From: a virus | Virus record (IMG/VR): IMGVR_UViG_3300030090_001223 | Location: 1 to 37,743 of that record | Reading direction: 5' to 3' (one strand) | DNA length: 37,743 nt | Shown: positions 4,069 through 27,641 of the stretch, one piece after another | How the letters are laid out: each line of letters begins with the position of its first letter | Numbering within the stretch: the first letter of the stretch is position 1 | Translations under genes and position numbers: made by a program | The notes under the pieces: generated by a model | What the model saw: the letters and a program-made list of their open reading frames with translations, nothing else | What the model was told of the DNA's origin: nothing | Databases searched by the model: none

Positions 4069-7000
4069 ATGCCTCAAACTGATTTTCAAAAAAGAATGCA
4101 GCTCGCTAGAGACAGAATGTCTACGGTGCCTAGCGATGTACGTATACAAGGAAACCAATCTAATCAAAATTTCGAAGAAGAAATCTCTAACTGGATACCA
4201 GATTTTATAAAACAGGGATACAATAATTCTATAACTGGTATGGCTAGAGAGCTGGCTATAGGGAAAAAACCTTTTGATATAGAAGAATACGACCCCAACG
4301 TTTTAGAAGACATAGGTTCTGGTGTAGTTAGTTTATTTATGCCAGCAGACTTGATTACTATGGTTGCTGGTGGTGGTGTTGGTGGTTTTGCAGTTAGGAG
4401 TGCTGCAAAAAGAGCTGGTACGATGGCTACAAAACAATTATTAAGGTCTGGAATTTCAAAAAATACTACCAGAGCTATTGTAGATGGAGGCGTTCAAAGA
4501 GTAGTAGGTGGAGCTACTGGATTTGCTGGCTATTCTGGATTAGCTAGCGCCTTAAATCAACAGATACAAGACTCAGAAATAGACTACAAAGAAGTATTAT
4601 CTGAGTCAACAAAAGGTGCTTTGCTTGGAGCTGTTACTGGAGGTATAGGGGCTAGGGCAAAATTTAAAGGTAGTAGCGAAGCTGTAAGAGTATTGCAAGA
4701 AGGCACTGCTTTTGGAGCTTTATCTCCAGCTCTAGAAGGTAGAACCCCTACTCCACAAGACTTTATACATTCTATTGGTACGGTTATAGGTATGAGAGGT
4801 GTAAATGCATCTTTATACTTAGCAAATCAAAAAAGAAAACAAGTAATATCAGAGAGAAGAAGAAAAGAATTAAAGCCGTTGGCAAAAAGACTTGCAACAG
4901 AGCAAGTACAAAAAGAAATGTCAATAGAGGCTACTGCTGATTTATATAAATCAATATCAAATCCAAAAGACATTGTAAAAATTGCTAGCGCTTCCAGAGA
5001 TAAAAAAGGCGCTACCGTATTTAACCTGCAGAACGTAGAGACTGGAAATAAAAGCTCTTTAAGAAAAGACGTCTTTCAGAAAAAATATACTACTACTGAA
5101 AACAAATCACAGTTATTAGAAAAATATAAATTATATGAAGCTGAAAGTCAGTATAGTGACTACGATATACAGATAAAGAGAAGAGAGGCTACTGGTTCTA
5201 AAAGCGCTAGAAGGATAAAGCTTGAGGATATGACGAATACTCAGCTATCTAATTACGCAAAGCAAATAACTGCTGATTATCGAATTAGGGAGTACAAGAA
5301 AAAGTATTTAGATTTAGCTGATTTGCCTAAGAAAACATTATTGGAGCACGCTCTACCACCGTCAATGGTTCAGTTTGTTTTACAAGCTCAAAACAGAGCT
5401 AAAGCTTTAGAATCTAGAGCTTTAATTGATTTAATAAAAAGCTCTGACATTCAAACAAAATTAACTTTTGAAAAATATCAAGGCAGGATTAACGAAATAC
5501 TAAATAAGTTATCTGATAAAGATTTATTAAAAGTTACAAGCTATTTAGAGGGCAGTAAGGAGCCAATTAGGTCAGATTTAAGAGTAAAGGCTAAGCAATC
5601 AAGGCAGATTTTTGATGATATGTATGAATACGCTAGGGGAAGAGGTATAAAAGTCGCTGATTATAGGTCTGACTATTTTCCTCAAATGATTAGAAGAGGG
5701 ATATTAGATACTATTAGTAATGACTTTATGTCTATGGTTAAAAAAAGAAGTCAGTTACTAGAATCTGGTTTAAGCGCAGAGTCAGTAAAAGAACTTAATA
5801 AATTTATAGAAAGATATACTAAAACAGAACTCAGTAAAGAAACAAAAAATGTTGTGCAACATTTAGTTAGAAAAGAAGGTATGACTCACTATGAAGCCTA
5901 TAGGCAGCTTCAGAACGAAGTATTCCTGCAGCAACTGAGACCTTTTGGTAATATAGAAAAGGCAAGAAAGTTAAACTTGCCAGACGAAATACTAGAAAAA
6001 GACCCTTTAAAAGTTATGACTGCTTACAATATGAAATTGGCTAGAAGGGTTGAGATAGCATCTAAATTTGGACTTAGAGGAGAAAGAGCTGAAAAACTAA
6101 TTAATGACATTATGCAGAAAAGTCCATCTGAGGCTAGGGCTATGTCTGCAGTTTGGGAAATATACAGCAGCCAGATAGAGTCTAATCCATACAAAAACTT
6201 TTCTCCTACTGGTAAAAAGCTAGCTGAAAATGTTATGGCATTTGAAATGGGAACAAAAATTGCTCTTGGTACTGCGACAATACCAAACTTAAGTCAGTTT
6301 GCTATATCTACTGCTGTTGAGGCTGGTTATTTTAGAACTATGAAGGGAGCTTTTAGGCTTTTAAATCCAGAAGTTCGCAAGCAACTAGATGCTACTGGCT
6401 CTACATACCACAACGCATTAGACGTTTTGTTGGGGACAAATCTTAATTTACGTTCAGCTGACGGTATCAAGCGATCAATAGTAGACTCTGTAAAAAACCC
6501 CAAAGATTCTTTGTTAAATATATCAAATGGATTAGCAACCTTATCTGGATTCAAAGGTATAAACTATTTTAATAATTTATTAGCTGCTTCTACAGCAGAA
6601 ATATTTATAAAAGACCTTCATAAAATAGCAAATACTTCTAATATTAAAAGTAGAAAGAATTGGGCGGTAACAAATTTAAAAAGATTTGGCATAGACCACA
6701 CTAAAAAACTATCGAATGAAAAAGTTTCTGCTGGTATGTTTGAGTTTGCAAGAAGTAGTCAGCTACAAAAAGATATACTTAAAGACCCTATAGCTTTTAA
6801 CTTACCTAGGTGGAGACCTTGGGTTATATTTAAAAGATTCGGATATAGACAGGCTAATTACATAGGAGAAACTCTTAAGAGAGAGGCTAAAGCTGGTAAT
6901 GTAGCAGCAATACTTAGGTTAGCTGTAGGTGGAGTTGCTGGTGGATATATCGTAGAAAGAGCTAGAAGGCTTTATTTAAAAACTCTTACTGGTGAAGAAA

Positions 7001-7542
7001 CTTTTATAGAAGACAAAAAAGATTTAGACTTAATAATAGATAGTATGGCAGCTGTTGGAGCGTTTGGTGTATTTGGAGACTTGTTGGGCTCCGAAGAGCT
7101 GTTATCAACATCAAAGTTTATATTGACTCCAGTTGTGGTTAGCGATTTAGAAAGAATTGGAATAGGATTAACTTCTTTAGCTAAGAATGTAGATACATTT
7201 GGTGCAGGAGAAATAGCAATGCGAAGAAGTCTTACAGAGTTTGCACCTCTATTTGGCTCCGTTCCTTCTAGGGCAATTAGAAAATACCAAACTCCAGCAC
7301 AAAGAATTGACAAGTTAAATCAGAGAAAGAGTAGACTAACATCTAAGTTGCTAGATATGATGATTGCTGGTAAATATGATTTAGTTAACTCTAATGTAAA
7401 GCAATGGAACTCAAAATTTCCAGAAGCTCCTATAACTCCAACCGATGTAAACTTTAAAAAAGCTCTAAAAAGAGTTCTTAGAAAGAACAGAATGATTGAA
7501 AGAGAAGAATTATTATTGAGAAGGGAGAAAATGGGTGGCTAG
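4069..7542 (+). CDS. Very large internal virion protein (1157 aa)
   Basis: This is the longest gene in the window. The N-terminal third has two weakly hydrophobic Gly/Ala-rich stretches (about 85-130 and 160-200), for example LFMPADLITMVAGGGVGGFA, which could interact with membranes. The middle (about 330-750) is helical and charged and includes a DYRSDYFPQMIRRGILD segment. The C-terminal part has another Gly/Ala/Val stretch near 945-965 (LAVGGVAGGYIVERARRLYL). I see no lysozyme, transglycosylase or protease motif. Size and position match the large ejection proteins of podoviruses (the role of T7 gp16), so a core or DNA-ejection role is inferred. The ribosome site is weak (GGTTAGAG), and the upstream stop is only 8 bases away. 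Confidence 0.8.
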   Translation: MPQTDFQKRMQLARDRMSTVPSDVRIQGNQSNQNFEEEISNWIPDFIKQGYNNSITGMARELAIGKKPFDIEEYDPNVLEDIGSGVVSLFMPADLITMVAGGGVGGFAVRSAAKRAGTMATKQLLRSGISKNTTRAIVDGGVQRVVGGATGFAGYSGLASALNQQIQDSEIDYKEVLSESTKGALLGAVTGGIGARAKFKGSSEAVRVLQEGTAFGALSPALEGRTPTPQDFIHSIGTVIGMRGVNASLYLANQKRKQVISERRRKELKPLAKRLATEQVQKEMSIEATADLYKSISNPKDIVKIASASRDKKGATVFNLQNVETGNKSSLRKDVFQKKYTTTENKSQLLEKYKLYEAESQYSDYDIQIKRREATGSKSARRIKLEDMTNTQLSNYAKQITADYRIREYKKKYLDLADLPKKTLLEHALPPSMVQFVLQAQNRAKALESRALIDLIKSSDIQTKLTFEKYQGRINEILNKLSDKDLLKVTSYLEGSKEPIRSDLRVKAKQSRQIFDDMYEYARGRGIKVADYRSDYFPQMIRRGILDTISNDFMSMVKKRSQLLESGLSAESVKELNKFIERYTKTELSKETKNVVQHLVRKEGMTHYEAYRQLQNEVFLQQLRPFGNIEKARKLNLPDEILEKDPLKVMTAYNMKLARRVEIASKFGLRGERAEKLINDIMQKSPSEARAMSAVWEIYSSQIESNPYKNFSPTGKKLAENVMAFEMGTKIALGTATIPNLSQFAISTAVEAGYFRTMKGAFRLLNPEVRKQLDATGSTYHNALDVLLGTNLNLRSADGIKRSIVDSVKNPKDSLLNISNGLATLSGFKGINYFNNLLAASTAEIFIKDLHKIANTSNIKSRKNWAVTNLKRFGIDHTKKLSNEKVSAGMFEFARSSQLQKDILKDPIAFNLPRWRPWVIFKRFGYRQANYIGETLKREAKAGNVAAILRLAVGGVAGGYIVERARRLYLKTLTGEETFIEDKKDLDLIIDSMAAVGAFGVFGDLLGSEELLSTSKFILTPVVVSDLERIGIGLTSLAKNVDTFGAGEIAMRRSLTEFAPLFGSVPSRAIRKYQTPAQRIDKLNQRKSRLTSKLLDMMIAGKYDLVNSNVKQWNSKFPEAPITPTDVNFKKALKRVLRKNRMIEREELLLRREKMGG

Positions 7543-15904: not shown

Positions 15905-16477
15905 CTAGAAAGGTAAATCTTCTTCCTTCTTTTTCTGTCCATCCCATACGTATATAGCACCAGCTCTAGGGGTAGTCCTCTCATTGCCTTCATTGTCTAT
16001 CCATTTGCTATGATAGACATCTATAAGCACTGGCATACCAGCCACATCGCTATCATCTACGCTAGGTAGATAGAACCTACCCTCACTATCCTCTTCTATC
16101 TTTACGCTAAAAGACTCTACTAGCTCTTTATAAGACTTGTTAGAGCCACTATTTTCTTCTAGGTTTGGGTGTGTGGAAGGGTCAGGCTTTTTAAATCTAA
16201 AGAATCCTTTAGACTTTACTTTCTTACCTACAAAGGCTTTGCCGCTAATCTCTTTACCATCTCTTTCATAGGTCTCACTACTGTTTTCTTCGGCTACTTC
16301 AAATGTAACTTCGTAAACATCTGCTAGATATTTACTTCTCACTACCAAGTCTTCTTTTACAGTTAACTCTGTAGCGTAGGCTTTATACGTACCCTCTGGC
16401 ATAACTCCAGAAAAGTCTGCTGCTGGGTCGTAATAAGCCTCTGACTTTGAATCTAGTATAGTATCTACACTACTCAT
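15905..16477 (-). CDS. ssb: Single-stranded DNA-binding protein
   Basis: A 190-residue protein ending in EEDLPF, the acidic tip with terminal Pro-Phe by which SSB proteins recruit partners. The body is beta-rich with several aromatic residues and Lys (GTYKAYATELTVKEDLVV, GKKVKSKGFFRFKKPDP), compatible with an OB fold. It overlaps the stop of the annealing-protein gene by 8 bases and has AAGGAG before the ATG. The pairing with a Sak3-type annealase and an exonuclease gives a phage recombination set, in which SSB tips usually load the annealase. The OB fold itself is not proven by motif; the C-terminal tip and context carry the call. Confidence 0.8.
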   Translation of the reverse strand: MSSVDTILDSKSEAYYDPAADFSGVMPEGTYKAYATELTVKEDLVVRSKYLADVYEVTFEVAEENSSETYERDGKEISGKAFVGKKVKSKGFFRFKKPDPSTHPNLEENSGSNKSYKELVESFSVKIEEDSEGRFYLPSVDDSDVAGMPVLIDVYHSKWIDNEGNERTTPRAGAIYVWDGQKKKEEDLPF

Positions 16478-18067: not shown

Positions 18068-19387
18068 CTATACATTACTTCTTACGTAGCCCATAGCCTC
18101 ATAATCCTCCTTCTTATTATAATCATAGAACTTAGCGATTCTTTTTAGAATATACTTCTGAGTATCTTCTTCTATATCTAATAGAAGAAAGAACTCTGAA
18201 AGAGTTAGGTCTCTGTTAAGTATTATCCTATCTAGCTCTACATTAGTAAAGTGGTCTAGGTTTACAGTTATATCTCTAGCCTTATCTACTATCGCAGTAC
18301 ATATTCTTATCCAATGTAAGAGTTTTTCTTTGTTAAGAGTACCAGAATGATATCTAAACTCTATAGAGCCGTGTAGTATTCTAGCGTGCAAATTCATATT
18401 GCAGTACCTAGAGTCATTGTATTTCTCCATAGAGGGGTCTACTCCCCAAGAACTATACCAAGTATCTATAAAGTCTTGGTTACTTTCTATTCTATGTATA
18501 CTAGACCTAGATAATGGTATCTTTCTACACCATCTACTATTCTCTCTTGAAGGTGGCATCATCTTGTATAGAATATTCTGAACAGACTTACCTAGTAAAA
18601 GTAGACTCTTAAGGTGTTGATACTCTAAGTCTCTACCGTCTACGTGTACGTGAACTCCACAGCTTCTATTAACTTCGTATTCATCGTAGCTAGTAAATGC
18701 TGTTATATATTCTACGTCTTTCCATAGAGCATCTCCATTCTTAGGAACTCTAGATACAAACTCTACTGATCTAGAACCCTCTCCGTGAGCTTGTATGCTG
18801 CCGTCGTGTACTGCTCTCCAGTTACCAGCTACCTCGTTAGCTCCATCCCAATAGTCCCATCCATCAGAATAGCACTCTAACTCTAGACCAACAAGCCTCT
18901 TGGATTTGATCGTCTCAAAAGACCTTGAACTAGAACCCATCTCTCTTGTATGGTAGCTATCTAAGTCTACGTCGTCTCCGTCTCCAGGATAACATTCTTC
19001 GCAGTATGTGTACCCAGTTCCTTCGTGATACATAGAGTAGTCATTGTGAATCTCTCCATCACACGTTTCGCAATGAGTATAGTTTTCATAGAAACATTCT
19101 ACACAATAAGGGTCTCCATTTTCAGTCCATCTAAGGTCGTCGCTATCCTCTGAATGGTGTTGATGACACTCTTCACAAGCATAGACATTCTCCATACACT
19201 CTTCGCATACGTTCTCTTGAGCACTTCCATCTATATCTATGTCTGCTTCGTAGGCTGTACCTTCGTGTACTTCATCACACATATCGCATACGTAAGACTC
19301 TTCATTCTCTACGACTGGACTATCTTCACTAAGAGGTTCTGGAGAATCTCCATCTCTCAGTTGCGCTCTGCTAGGCATATTAGGCAT
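18068..19387 (-). CDS. Amidoligase with N-terminal zinc ribbons
   Basis: Residues 30-135 hold six CxxC pairs (34-37, 61-64, 71-74, 95-98, 106-109, 129-132), enough for three zinc ribbons. Residues about 165-380 match the Amidoligase_2 family, a glutamine-synthetase-like COOH-NH2 ligase fold: LVGLELECYS (Glu169, Glu171), VHDGSIQ, SVEFVS, CGVHVHVDG (243-251), NMNLHARILHGSIEFRYHSG with Glu343 and Arg345. Such enzymes are predicted to join a carboxylate to an amine using ATP, making peptide tags or unusual amides. The substrate is unknown; the ribbons may bind a nucleic acid or protein partner. Ribosome site GGAGG lies 4 bases before the first ATG. It is the last gene of the leftward block, next to a 107-residue gene and a glutamine amidotransferase. 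Confidence 0.85.
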   Translation of the reverse strand: MPNMPSRAQLRDGDSPEPLSEDSPVVENEESYVCDMCDEVHEGTAYEADIDIDGSAQENVCEECMENVYACEECHQHHSEDSDDLRWTENGDPYCVECFYENYTHCETCDGEIHNDYSMYHEGTGYTYCEECYPGDGDDVDLDSYHTREMGSSSRSFETIKSKRLVGLELECYSDGWDYWDGANEVAGNWRAVHDGSIQAHGEGSRSVEFVSRVPKNGDALWKDVEYITAFTSYDEYEVNRSCGVHVHVDGRDLEYQHLKSLLLLGKSVQNILYKMMPPSRENSRWCRKIPLSRSSIHRIESNQDFIDTWYSSWGVDPSMEKYNDSRYCNMNLHARILHGSIEFRYHSGTLNKEKLLHWIRICTAIVDKARDITVNLDHFTNVELDRIILNRDLTLSEFFLLLDIEEDTQKYILKRIAKFYDYNKKEDYEAMGYVRSNV

Positions 19388-19396
19388 ATATCCTCC

Positions 19397-19720
19397 TCAC
19401 GCTATTGCGTAGTTTGTAGTTATTACATAGAAAGCCATATAGTTAACTTCTCTGAGCCATCCTAGAGACTTGAGAGTCTTGTATATATCCTCTGCTTTAT
19501 TGCTTTTAACCTTCACTCCTTCTACATCTTCTATCTGTCTAGCAATAAACTTTAGATAAGATTCAAAACTTTCAGTATCTACGAAAGGATTTCTCTTAGC
19601 TTTATCGTATAGCTTTCTCATTACAAACATCTTAGAGCGTACTCTAATAGGACTAGATATACCAACTACAATAGCAGACTTTTTCTTTCTAACTCCAGAA
19701 ATATCCTTGCCTGGTATCAT
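19397..19720 (-). CDS. Amidoligase-module protein of unknown function (107 aa)
   Basis: It overlaps the end of the glutamine amidotransferase gene by 32 bases and ends 9 bases before the amidoligase start; GGAG lies 7 bases before its ATG. The middle (NPFVDTESFESYLKFIARQI) and end (AEDIYKTLKSLGWLREVNYM) look like a small alpha/beta or winged-helix-like fold. No Cys or catalytic motif. Because it is locked between two enzymes of the module it is a candidate substrate, carrier or adaptor, but that is inference from position. Confidence 0.7.
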   Translation of the reverse strand: MIPGKDISGVRKKKSAIVVGISSPIRVRSKMFVMRKLYDKAKRNPFVDTESFESYLKFIARQIEDVEGVKVKSNKAEDIYKTLKSLGWLREVNYMAFYVITTNYAIA

Positions 19721-20810
19721 CTTCAGTCTCCTTTGGTTTATTATTATATGGTCTACTGTAATTATAATTATTACAGTCTTCGCATATATAATGGTTATCT
19801 AATTTAACAGAGACACCACACCAATCTCCACACCAATCACATTCTATCCCGTGGTCTATCTCTGTATCTCCTTCTTCATACTCGCAATCTATACAAACGA
19901 ACTTGTTCTCTTTATCGTACCAGATTAAGTCCCACCAGTCTGCCTTAGTCGCACAAGAAGAGCATACTTCTTGCTGGGCTACTTGCCTACCACCAATAGA
20001 GCAGCTTGGTTGATTATAGTCTGTTACGTAGTAGTTAGATGCAATAGTATTTGTCTTATACTTCTTTCTACTCCAGTTGATTTTATCAGACAACTTGTCT
20101 GTATCTAGAGTATACAAAGTGTCTACCTTTGTCTCGTGTATAAGAACATTTGCTTCTACTGTGTAACGGCTTCCCTTTACTCTCTTGTTTACAACTCCCA
20201 ATAGAGATTTTTCTAGTATCTCTTTGGTTGATGCATAGAATAAAGTTCTAGCTTCTTTCCAATAGGCAAAGGCAGTAGGTCTACCATTCTCTCTGAGTAA
20301 GTTCAATATATTATTATTGTCCTTAACCCAAGATAGAGCGTAGTCTCCATACAGTTCGTCTAGACATTCTTGAAGATTATTGTTCTCATCTAGTAGAGCA
20401 AATATACATTGAGAATCTACCTCGTAAGACTTGCTTACAGAGACATCTTCGTGATTATATATTACTCCATTATGAGTGCCAATGATAGAACCTATCCTAA
20501 AGGGGTGAGCATTCTCCAGAGATATCTTTCCGTGGGTAGCATATCTAGTATGCCCCAAAACAATATTAGTCTCTGGGGTTAGCTGTTCTCTGATCGTATT
20601 CCAGTCTTTACTCTTTACTAAGTTGCTAGACTTTTTAAGAGATTTAAAGACAATAGGATTACTATCTTTTCTAAAGAACGCTAAGCCAGTAGAGTGTTCA
20701 CCTCTAATCTCTGACTCTCTAGTCAGATTAGTTAGGACTCTATCTATCTTCTTCATCTGAGACTTTGTCTGTGCATTCTGCTTCTTTGCCATTCCGTATA
20801 TCGCACACAT
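19689..20810 (-). CDS. Class II glutamine amidotransferase with C-terminal zinc ribbons
   Basis: An N-terminal nucleophile domain begins directly with Met-Cys2 (MCAIYGMAKK), the catalytic cysteine after Met removal. Family motifs follow: RGEHSTGLAF (36-45), LGHTRYATHG (85-94), HPF (102-104... His102 region), GTHNGVIYNH (111-120), VDSQ (131-134) and GDYALSW (155-161). These bind glutamine and release ammonia. Residues about 280-350 add CSSC, CIDC, CDWCGDWC and CEDC, a zinc-ribbon array like that on the amidoligase. No synthase or isomerase domain (as in GlmS, PurF or AsnB) is attached, so ammonia or glutamyl transfer probably serves a separate partner, most likely the amidoligase. AGGAGAA lies 7 bases before ATG. 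Confidence 0.9.
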   Translation of the reverse strand: MCAIYGMAKKQNAQTKSQMKKIDRVLTNLTRESEIRGEHSTGLAFFRKDSNPIVFKSLKKSSNLVKSKDWNTIREQLTPETNIVLGHTRYATHGKISLENAHPFRIGSIIGTHNGVIYNHEDVSVSKSYEVDSQCIFALLDENNNLQECLDELYGDYALSWVKDNNNILNLLRENGRPTAFAYWKEARTLFYASTKEILEKSLLGVVNKRVKGSRYTVEANVLIHETKVDTLYTLDTDKLSDKINWSRKKYKTNTIASNYYVTDYNQPSCSIGGRQVAQQEVCSSCATKADWWDLIWYDKENKFVCIDCEYEEGDTEIDHGIECDWCGDWCGVSVKLDNHYICEDCNNYNYSRPYNNKPKETEDDTRQGYFWS

Positions 20811-20836: not shown

Positions 20837-20879
20837 GAGTATTATTACATCATAGGCTCTCCTATATCCAATAATACTC
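20837..20879. other. Long bipartite hairpin between glycosylase-like and amidotransferase genes
   Basis: Outer arms GAGTATTATT and AATAATACTC (10 bp) enclose an inner stem ATAGG/CCTAT with a 4-base loop; the two stems are separated by a small internal loop. It straddles the stop codon of the gene ending at 20862. No T-run follows on the minus strand, so RNA processing or stability is more likely than termination. Confidence 0.65.
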
Positions 20880-21278
20880 TAGGTTATCTGGTTCAGTCCA
20901 ACCATAACTTGAATAGAACTTAAAGTCCTTTCTAAGTAGGTTGCTTCTATGAGATGCGTGTAGCTTCTCTTCACCGAGCCAGTGCGGCATCTCTACATTT
21001 TCGGATATACCATACATTTCCATAGTATTGTTATACCCTCTAAGTATCCACTCCTCTATCATTTTATTCTTGTAGAGAAGCAGAGCCTCTTCGTAGCCTT
21101 GCCACATAGTTACAGCTGGATGATTCTTCCAGCCTTTGTACTCTCTACCACTCTTCGTAGGTACGCCTGTTAAAGCGTTGAAGATCTGTAGAGCTTCCAC
21201 TCTCTGTTTACCTAGCCTTCTGTAGTCTAGGCATTGTGCAGAGAGCGTAAAGTCTTTATATGGTAAAAATGTCTGCAT
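20862..21278 (-). CDS. MSMEG_6728-family protein, T4 endonuclease V-like
   Basis: The 138-residue protein follows the MSMEG_6728-type family end to end: MQTFLPYKDFTLSAQCLDYR, RRLGKQRVEALQIFNAL, GWKNHPAVTMWQGYEEALL, then MPHWLGEEKLHASHRSNLLR and a C-terminal PDNLEYYWI. This family belongs, as I recall, to the Pyr_excise group with T4 pyrimidine-dimer DNA glycosylase. Arg20-Arg21, Glu28, His53 and the His107/His110/Arg111 group are the constant polar residues. DNA repair of UV damage is the family-based guess, but the biochemical activity of this branch is not established to my knowledge. It is in the same transcript as the amidotransferase, 51 bases upstream, across a hairpin. Confidence 0.8.
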   Translation of the reverse strand: MQTFLPYKDFTLSAQCLDYRRLGKQRVEALQIFNALTGVPTKSGREYKGWKNHPAVTMWQGYEEALLLYKNKMIEEWILRGYNNTMEMYGISENVEMPHWLGEEKLHASHRSNLLRKDFKFYSSYGWTEPDNLEYYWI

Positions 21279-27296: not shown

Positions 27297-27641
27297 ATGA
27301 AGTTAGCTGTATATGGAACACTTAGGGCTGGTTCTAAGAATACTGGTATTGTTAAAAACTCTTCTTTGGTGTACCCAGGACACGAAAGCTTTCCAGCGGT
27401 TATACACAATAAAAAAGGTTCTGGAACCGTAGTAGAGGTTCATAATGTATCAGAGGAAGATTTAGTAAGGTATGATATGTATGAAGGTATAAGTTCTGGA
27501 TTGTATAGAAGAGTTAGAGTTGAAGTAGATATGGATGATGGCTCAAAAGAAAAAGTTTGGATTTATGTAGCAGGGGATGAGTTAATGCAAAAAAGCAATA
27601 TGTTTAGAGTAATTCAAAGTGGAGACTGGTACAATAGATAA
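27297..27641 (+). CDS. Gamma-glutamylcyclotransferase-fold (AIG2-like) protein
   Basis: 114 residues with the family's N-terminal MKLAVYGTLRAGSKN (Tyr6-Gly-Thr-Leu-Arg), which binds the gamma-glutamyl group, and YDMYEGISSGLYRRVRVEV, in which Glu63 fits the catalytic acid that follows 'Y' and precedes 'Y.R..V.V'. Such enzymes release a gamma-glutamyl amine or peptide as 5-oxoproline and the free amine. In the phage context it is a natural reverse or trimming partner for the amidoligase and amidotransferase encoded at 18068-20810. AAAGGAAG lies 4 bases before ATG. It sits oddly between the two terminase subunits and overlaps the start of the large subunit. Confidence 0.85.
   Translation: MKLAVYGTLRAGSKNTGIVKNSSLVYPGHESFPAVIHNKKGSGTVVEVHNVSEEDLVRYDMYEGISSGLYRRVRVEVDMDDGSKEKVWIYVAGDELMQKSNMFRVIQSGDWYNR

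Follow-up and report, generated by a model that had tools for sequence, protein, structure and literature searches.

A predicted amide-bond cassette of uncultured tailed phages combines two zinc-finger enzymes with an exclusive 107-residue protein

Podoviruses like phiEco32, LUZ24 and RIO-1 have, amid their replication genes, a cassette encoding two amidoligases (one of them a gamma-glutamyl amidoligase), an ATP-grasp enzyme, a cyclotransferase and a glutamine amidotransferase (Iyer et al., 2009 and Hardies et al., 2013, as cited in PMC5498523 and PMC10580990; gene lists in PMC3890496). PMC5498523 and PMC10580990 put forward the hypothesis that the cassette remodels peptidoglycan against superinfection. 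We verified clusters of this type in Alcaligenes phage QDWS535, E. coli phage PJNS034, Klebsiella phage Asterion, Proteus phage Privateer and ctOsX528; the GATs of these clusters likewise end in CxxC arrays. Genes for amidoligase and amidotransferase are clustered across many phage groups, and the accessible literature yielded no experimental function for them; an earlier note on the DNA analysed here had likewise stated that such operons are known without proven function, in agreement with what these podoviral sources describe. Here we report a related locus in the uncultured tailed-phage record IMGVR_UViG_3300030090_001223, all 37,743 nucleotides of which constitute the window, and which encodes a P22-like portal, an SU10-type capsid protein, a terminase and a DnaB-type helicase. 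On its minus strand a class II glutamine amidotransferase (GAT), a 107-residue protein (p107) and an amidoligase (AMI1) are transcribed in this order from one tight operon.

19689–20810, minus strand: GAT, class II glutamine amidotransferase, 373 amino acids
19397–19720, minus strand: p107, 107 amino acids
18068–19387, minus strand: AMI1, amidoligase of the Amidoligase_2 family, 439 amino acids

In 62 other contigs relatives of the three genes keep this order, and the genes are under purifying selection (ratio of nonsynonymous to synonymous substitution rates, dN/dS, of 0.19–0.40 against three relatives), so the trio is not a chance finding. A search from p107 yielded 63 uncultured viral loci. 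A zinc-finger amidoligase follows 1–13 nucleotides downstream in 63/63, and GAT lies directly upstream in all 62 loci where this could be tested, the genes overlapping or being separated by at most 13 nucleotides. The earlier note had staked its proposal on the co-occurrence of the three genes, which holds throughout these 62 loci. Neighbouring genes vary among the 62 loci (methylase in 7, annealing protein in 20, glycosylase in 31); no broken trio was seen. A search from the amidoligase gave 80 viral loci, 30 with a cysteine-rich arm and 50 without. p107 was present in 29/30 of the former and GAT within 1 kilobase (kb) in 29/30, versus 0/50 and 10/50 of the latter; when only well-flanked loci were counted, a class II GAT lay within 1 kb in 23/23 with zinc fingers and in 7/33 without. 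Such pairs occur in both gene orders, and their presence near finger-less amidoligases as well argues that the enzyme pair is functional beyond the window lineage. Among 80 loci found from the terminase, 12 of the 14 with enough flank contain the trio; of the other two, L194 belongs to the same contig as L047, a locus with the trio, and L199 stops inside the second amidoligase. Two scans of cellular genomes with p107 (84,980 cellular species) found neither p107 nor the trio.

GAT matches the GATase_6 profile (E=4e-15, 56 bits against a cut-off of 27) and consists of an N-terminal nucleophile (Ntn)-type glutaminase domain with Cys2 and a C-terminal cysteine-rich arm. Cys2, Arg89, Thr92, His102, Asn114, Gly115 and Asp132 are invariant in 29 relatives. 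Residues 23–123 align to GlmS (PDB 1xff), the HTRxATHG, NAHP and HNG motifs being matched, and from this alignment and general knowledge of GlmS we take the invariant residues to be the equivalents of its glutaminase site. By profile and active-site residues, GAT is a class II glutamine amidotransferase with predicted glutaminase activity. AMI1 in turn matches Amidoligase_2 (PF12224; E=2.3e-20, 74 bits against a cut-off of 22) and is predicted to act as an ATP-dependent carboxylate-amine ligase. Invariant in 44 sequences are E169, E171, D195, S197, E209, C243-G244, H246, H248, R281, R327, N332, E343 and R345; the catalytic-type set ExE, DxS, CGxHxH, R/N and ExR is kept in full. The Met-Cys nucleophile and the amidoligase active site singled out in the earlier note are thus conserved in both enzymes. 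A structure model of AMI1, for which the alignment (A8) left out three rows from the phage collection, had a predicted local distance difference test score (pLDDT) of 86 and a predicted template modelling score (pTM) of 0.69. It matched YbdK (1r8g, E=1e-4), the bifunctional glutathione synthetase GshF (3ln7), glutamine synthetase and Dop (E values 1e-4 to 3e-3). These matches had low template modelling (TM) scores of 0.2–0.4, so the model supports a glutamine-synthetase/GCS fold class, as had been proposed, and not its finer detail.

Both enzymes carry additional cysteine-rich arms.

19773–19964, minus strand: C-terminal zinc-finger arm of GAT, residues 283–346, CxxC motifs at 283, 306, 324 and 343
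18992–19288, minus strand: N-terminal tandem zinc-finger arm of AMI1, residues 34–132, three Cys4 units

The three units of AMI1 are made up of six CxxC motifs (residues 34, 61, 71, 95, 106 and 129) ahead of the catalytic domain. In GAT the first Cys4 unit (C283, C286, C306 and C309) is invariant in the 29 relatives; the second is optional and occurs only in some. Zinc ribbons had been assigned to both enzymes beforehand; the Cys4 arrays are indeed on both, but in the model the AMI1 arm folds as hairpin-hairpin-helix with treble-clef-like strands and a helix (pLDDT 82–93), and the arrays resemble tandem fingers of the treble-clef or LIM type rather than simple ribbons. Matches to LIM domains were weak in sequence and in fold. 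The AMI1 arm is strongly acidic, with a net charge of −28 in the window and a median of −20 across members.

The middle gene defines a new small protein family, judged by sequence, that is core to a widespread uncultured phage lineage. Its homologues comprise 54 distinct open reading frames in viral loci, and in the loci found it is encoded only between GAT and the amidoligase. p107 matched no family or entry in Pfam, PHROG, NCBIfam, PADLOC or PDB, nor did a fold search give a PDB match; BFVD gave small phage proteins without names (best A0A516M232, E=3.8e-3), which indicate no function. A JetA match (E=0.004), below the cut-off and common to 3/29 members, was treated as chance. The model (pLDDT 77.5, pTM 0.68) has the order strand-helix-helix-helix-strand-helix with weak ends. 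G20, S29, K30, L37, A41, K42, N44-P45-F46, Y55, Y80, L83, K84 and W88 are nearly invariant, and the alignment of homologues contains no invariant acidic residue. Against L006, the nearest well-separated relative, p107 is the most conserved of the three (76%; GAT 66% and the amidoligase 51%); dN/dS of p107 is near 0.2. Its N-terminal half tends to be basic (median +3), opposite in charge to the acidic amidoligase arm. The C-terminus is a hydrophobic motif, N-x-(G/A)-(I/V)-x, at nearly fixed length and ends in TTNYAIA or TTNIGV. A membrane protein was considered and set aside: with a Kyte-Doolittle maximum of about 1.5, the hydrophobic C-terminus for the most part does not exceed the usual transmembrane threshold. 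On a contig of 80,282 bases (IMGVR_UViG_3300030708_000851; L242 and L243) two clearly different p107 genes lie 44 kb apart, which probably reflects an assembly that fused two related phage genomes, or else a true double cassette.

Because p107 is strictly tied to this version of the cassette, with no sign of catalysis and no conserved carboxylate among its side chains, it is most economically viewed as an assembly or targeting partner of the two enzymes. A role as substrate or tag, the chief rival for p107, is possible and ranks below this as less likely. The ligase could amidate the p107 C-terminus, or join its C-terminal carboxylate or its conserved lysines to a target protein in Pup-like tagging; the GAT-fold protein would then provide ammonia or take the tag off. 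Such a scheme would fit the confinement of p107 to the side of the ligase, the near-constant length at which its C-terminal motif occurs, the near-invariance of Lys30, Lys42 and Lys84, and the fold that the ligase has in common with Dop and the Pup ligase family. We nevertheless regard it as distinctly unlikely. Pup is disordered and pupylation employs a small tag with a Gly-Gly-Glu/Gln end, whereas p107 is predicted to be folded and helical with conserved N44-P45-F46, Y55, L83 and W88, and its termini given above are of another kind; two loci, L048 and L013, carry both enzymes and no p107; and GAT keeps its glutamine-binding residues, which a de-tagging hydrolase would not need. PafA/Dop (Pup ligase/deamidase) and YbdK resemble AMI1 in the glutamine-synthetase/GCS-type fold found by structure search and differ in domain set, and no Pup-like substrate was recognised. 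Less probable again is a phage-encoded form of protein tagging with p107 as tag or carrier: the zinc-finger amidoligase would activate the p107 C-terminus and either couple it to, or amidate it for, a target picked by the finger arms.

The trio is a conserved unit, but the earlier note had overlooked a cyclotransferase elsewhere in the window and a second amidoligase in relatives, and it is these two that connect the locus to the podoviral cassette.

27297–27641, plus strand: gamma-glutamyl(amine) cyclotransferase, AIG2/GGACT family, 114 amino acids (PF06094, E=3.3e-15)

The gene lies between terS and terL and overlaps the terL start, about 6.5 kb from the trio on the opposite strand; the site is odd for a metabolic gene, yet constant. 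It was found in 64/64 sufficiently flanked terL-lineage loci, 41/45 p107 loci and 12/12 long contigs, with its YGTLR and DxYE motifs kept, and is a probable partner of the trio in trans. The second zinc-finger amidoligase (AMI2) lies directly upstream of GAT in 45/62 p107 loci, giving the order AMI2-GAT-p107-AMI1. It is longer (most are 560–676 amino acids; examples among L112–L161 are L126:7166-8986 and L117:7039-8799), and the region ahead of its fingers matches no Pfam family. Profile comparison gave no signal for p107 as a homologue of the N-terminal part of this second amidoligase. AMI2 is absent from the clade of the window and from L158. Among 12 records (the window and 11 relatives), PF12224 matched once each in the window and G003 and twice each in the other ten. 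The pattern needs two changes on the GAT tree, whose root is for drawing only; loss in the window clade is the likelier direction, though not proven. Since the window clade does without AMI2, the irreducible set is AMI1, p107 and GAT.

With the podoviral cassette the locus shares Amidoligase_2, a class II GAT with a C-terminal Cys4 arm, a cyclotransferase, a setting among replication genes, a small protein of no known function and, in most relatives of the window, two ligases. GATs of the phiEco32/LUZ24 type (L010, L011, L015, L016 and L019) have one to three C-terminal Cys4 units, and their amidoligases none; the accessible parts of the literature on those cassettes contain no mention of these arrays. 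Unlike the podoviral cassette, the window lineage has a zinc-finger arm on the amidoligase, p107 in place of an unrelated protein of about 200 residues, and a cyclotransferase distant from the trio on the other strand. p107 was also compared by profile with this LUZ24-type protein, and homology was rejected as no signal emerged. The COOH-NH2 ligase PF14395 was found in 0/12 records, which may be fragments, the same search being positive in 6/8 phage controls; RimK-type ATP-grasp was likewise found in 0/12, by a search that was positive in 5/8 controls and misses one known case. A separate ATP-grasp profile had no match in any p107 locus. The locus would work like the podoviral cassette but, lacking these two features, is a variant rather than a member; it is best read as a reduced form of that cassette in which the zinc-finger arms and p107 are the new parts.

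The families also combine in other ways. Amidoligase, GAT and cyclotransferase occur together in Arthrobacter, ZRK32, QDWS535, PJNS034 and Privateer phages. The AIG2-amidoligase-GAT block of Arthrobacter phage Shrooms (L012) contains the three enzyme families without ATP-grasp, as here, but neither enzyme has zinc fingers, p107 is missing and the cyclotransferase is within the block; a similar AIG2-amidoligase pair is reported for cluster AL in PMC5513430. Caudoviricetes sp. ctgrD200 (MW202733, L013) and L048 resemble the window in having a zinc-finger amidoligase beside a class II GAT, and differ in that the amidoligase precedes GAT, the reverse of the window order, and no p107 was found in the record. 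The ctgrD200 GAT lacks a Cys4 arm; in L048 (2465-4735) GAT has one Cys4 unit. The proposal that the arms tether both enzymes to the same partner is therefore not general, as the arrays are on GAT only in LUZ24-type cassettes and on the amidoligase only in ctgrD200.

We put at about even chances that the trio is a compact glutamine-dependent amide-bond cassette with p107 as assembly partner and peptidoglycan as likeliest substrate. GAT would hydrolyse glutamine at Cys2 and free ammonia, and AMI1 would activate a carboxylate with ATP and condense it with this ammonia to a carboxamide. In class II GATs paired with a synthetase, such as GlmS, PurF and AsnB, the use of GAT-derived ammonia is the usual chemistry; from this and the suitability of the glutamine-synthetase fold we infer that AMI1 uses the ammonia of GAT. 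p107, as a non-enzymatic dedicated assembly partner, would probably bind the acidic zinc-finger arms and link both enzymes in an ammonia-passing complex. The cyclotransferase may act on the same type of gamma-glutamyl-amine linkage. By analogy, the likeliest substrate would be a gamma-glutamyl or diamino-acid carboxylate of host peptidoglycan peptides, altered early in infection; no pointer was found to the ribosome or RNA polymerase, which the earlier note had listed as possible targets. Several points weigh against this proposal. The peptidoglycan target is drawn from likeness to the podoviral cassettes, and no biochemistry was found in the literature for a single phage member. The p107 loci all come from a single lineage with terminase and replication genes in common, so that vertical descent accounts for part of the co-occurrence. 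L048 and L013 keep the enzyme pair without p107, which is therefore not generally needed. Charge complementarity fails in some members, the net charge of p107 going down to −5. In the cassettes already known, at most one of the enzymes bears zinc fingers.

The enzymes could instead produce a small metabolite, a gamma-glutamyl compound or an amide, or supply nitrogen salvage as auxiliary metabolism, with no polymer modified. Small gamma-glutamyl compounds are the typical substrates of cyclotransferases. When nitrate or ammonium was supplied, Phage-ZRK32, whose genes include an amidoligase, a GAT, an ATP-grasp enzyme and a cyclotransferase, promoted the growth of its host, although the gene-level link is speculation in that report (PMC10945688). 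Free small substrates would hardly account for large zinc-finger arms on both enzymes, and the trio stands in a replication operon and is core in its lineage; we consider this reading rather unlikely.

The coordinates, gene overlap and 9-base gap given for the trio beforehand were exact. p107 overlaps GAT by 32 nucleotides and ends 9 nucleotides before the amidoligase start. Shine-Dalgarno-like sites precede all three genes (AAGGAG, AGGAGG and AGGAG), two of which are placed as follows.

19728–19733, minus strand: Shine-Dalgarno-like AAGGAG, 7 nucleotides before the p107 start, within the GAT gene end
19392–19397, minus strand: Shine-Dalgarno-like AGGAGG, 4 nucleotides before the amidoligase start

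Upstream of the trio lies a pyrimidine-dimer glycosylase-type gene and downstream an exonuclease and a Sak-type annealing protein, which place it in a replication/recombination operon. Most p107 loci share the terminase, helicase, exonuclease and a gene of the type found at window 15905–16477. As the window operon encodes a single-strand annealing protein, an exonuclease, a helicase and a cytosine methylase, and p107 is often basic, the cassette might amidate, or add an amine to, a modified base of phage DNA, with nucleic acid or replication proteins as the binding partners of its zinc fingers. Strongly acidic finger arms (the median given above) speak against nucleic-acid binding, and no base hypermodification gene was recognised among the open reading frames examined; this is the least probable of the explanations weighed here.

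Of the versions found with a dedicated partner protein, that of the window lineage is the smallest: two enzymes, p107 and the cyclotransferase, without ATP-grasp and the second ligase family. Its size makes reconstitution feasible, and p107 offers an exclusive handle for finding the target. A cell-wall target would put the superinfection-exclusion idea to the test; a protein target would mean a new phage protein-modification pathway. The parts belong to known families; what makes an old puzzle testable is a third protein exclusive to the cassette, together with the doubling of the zinc-finger ligases and the minimal gene set.

PADLOC models of known anti-phage defence matched neither the trio nor the cyclotransferase. 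At the left end of the window, within a block of plus-strand genes, 4069–7542 encodes a 1157-residue protein without a match in Pfam (E<=0.01) or PHROG (E<=0.001). The pyrimidine-dimer DNA glycosylase-type gene (20862–21278; PF03013, E=1e-24) is the gene immediately upstream of GAT and is present in about half of the p107 loci.

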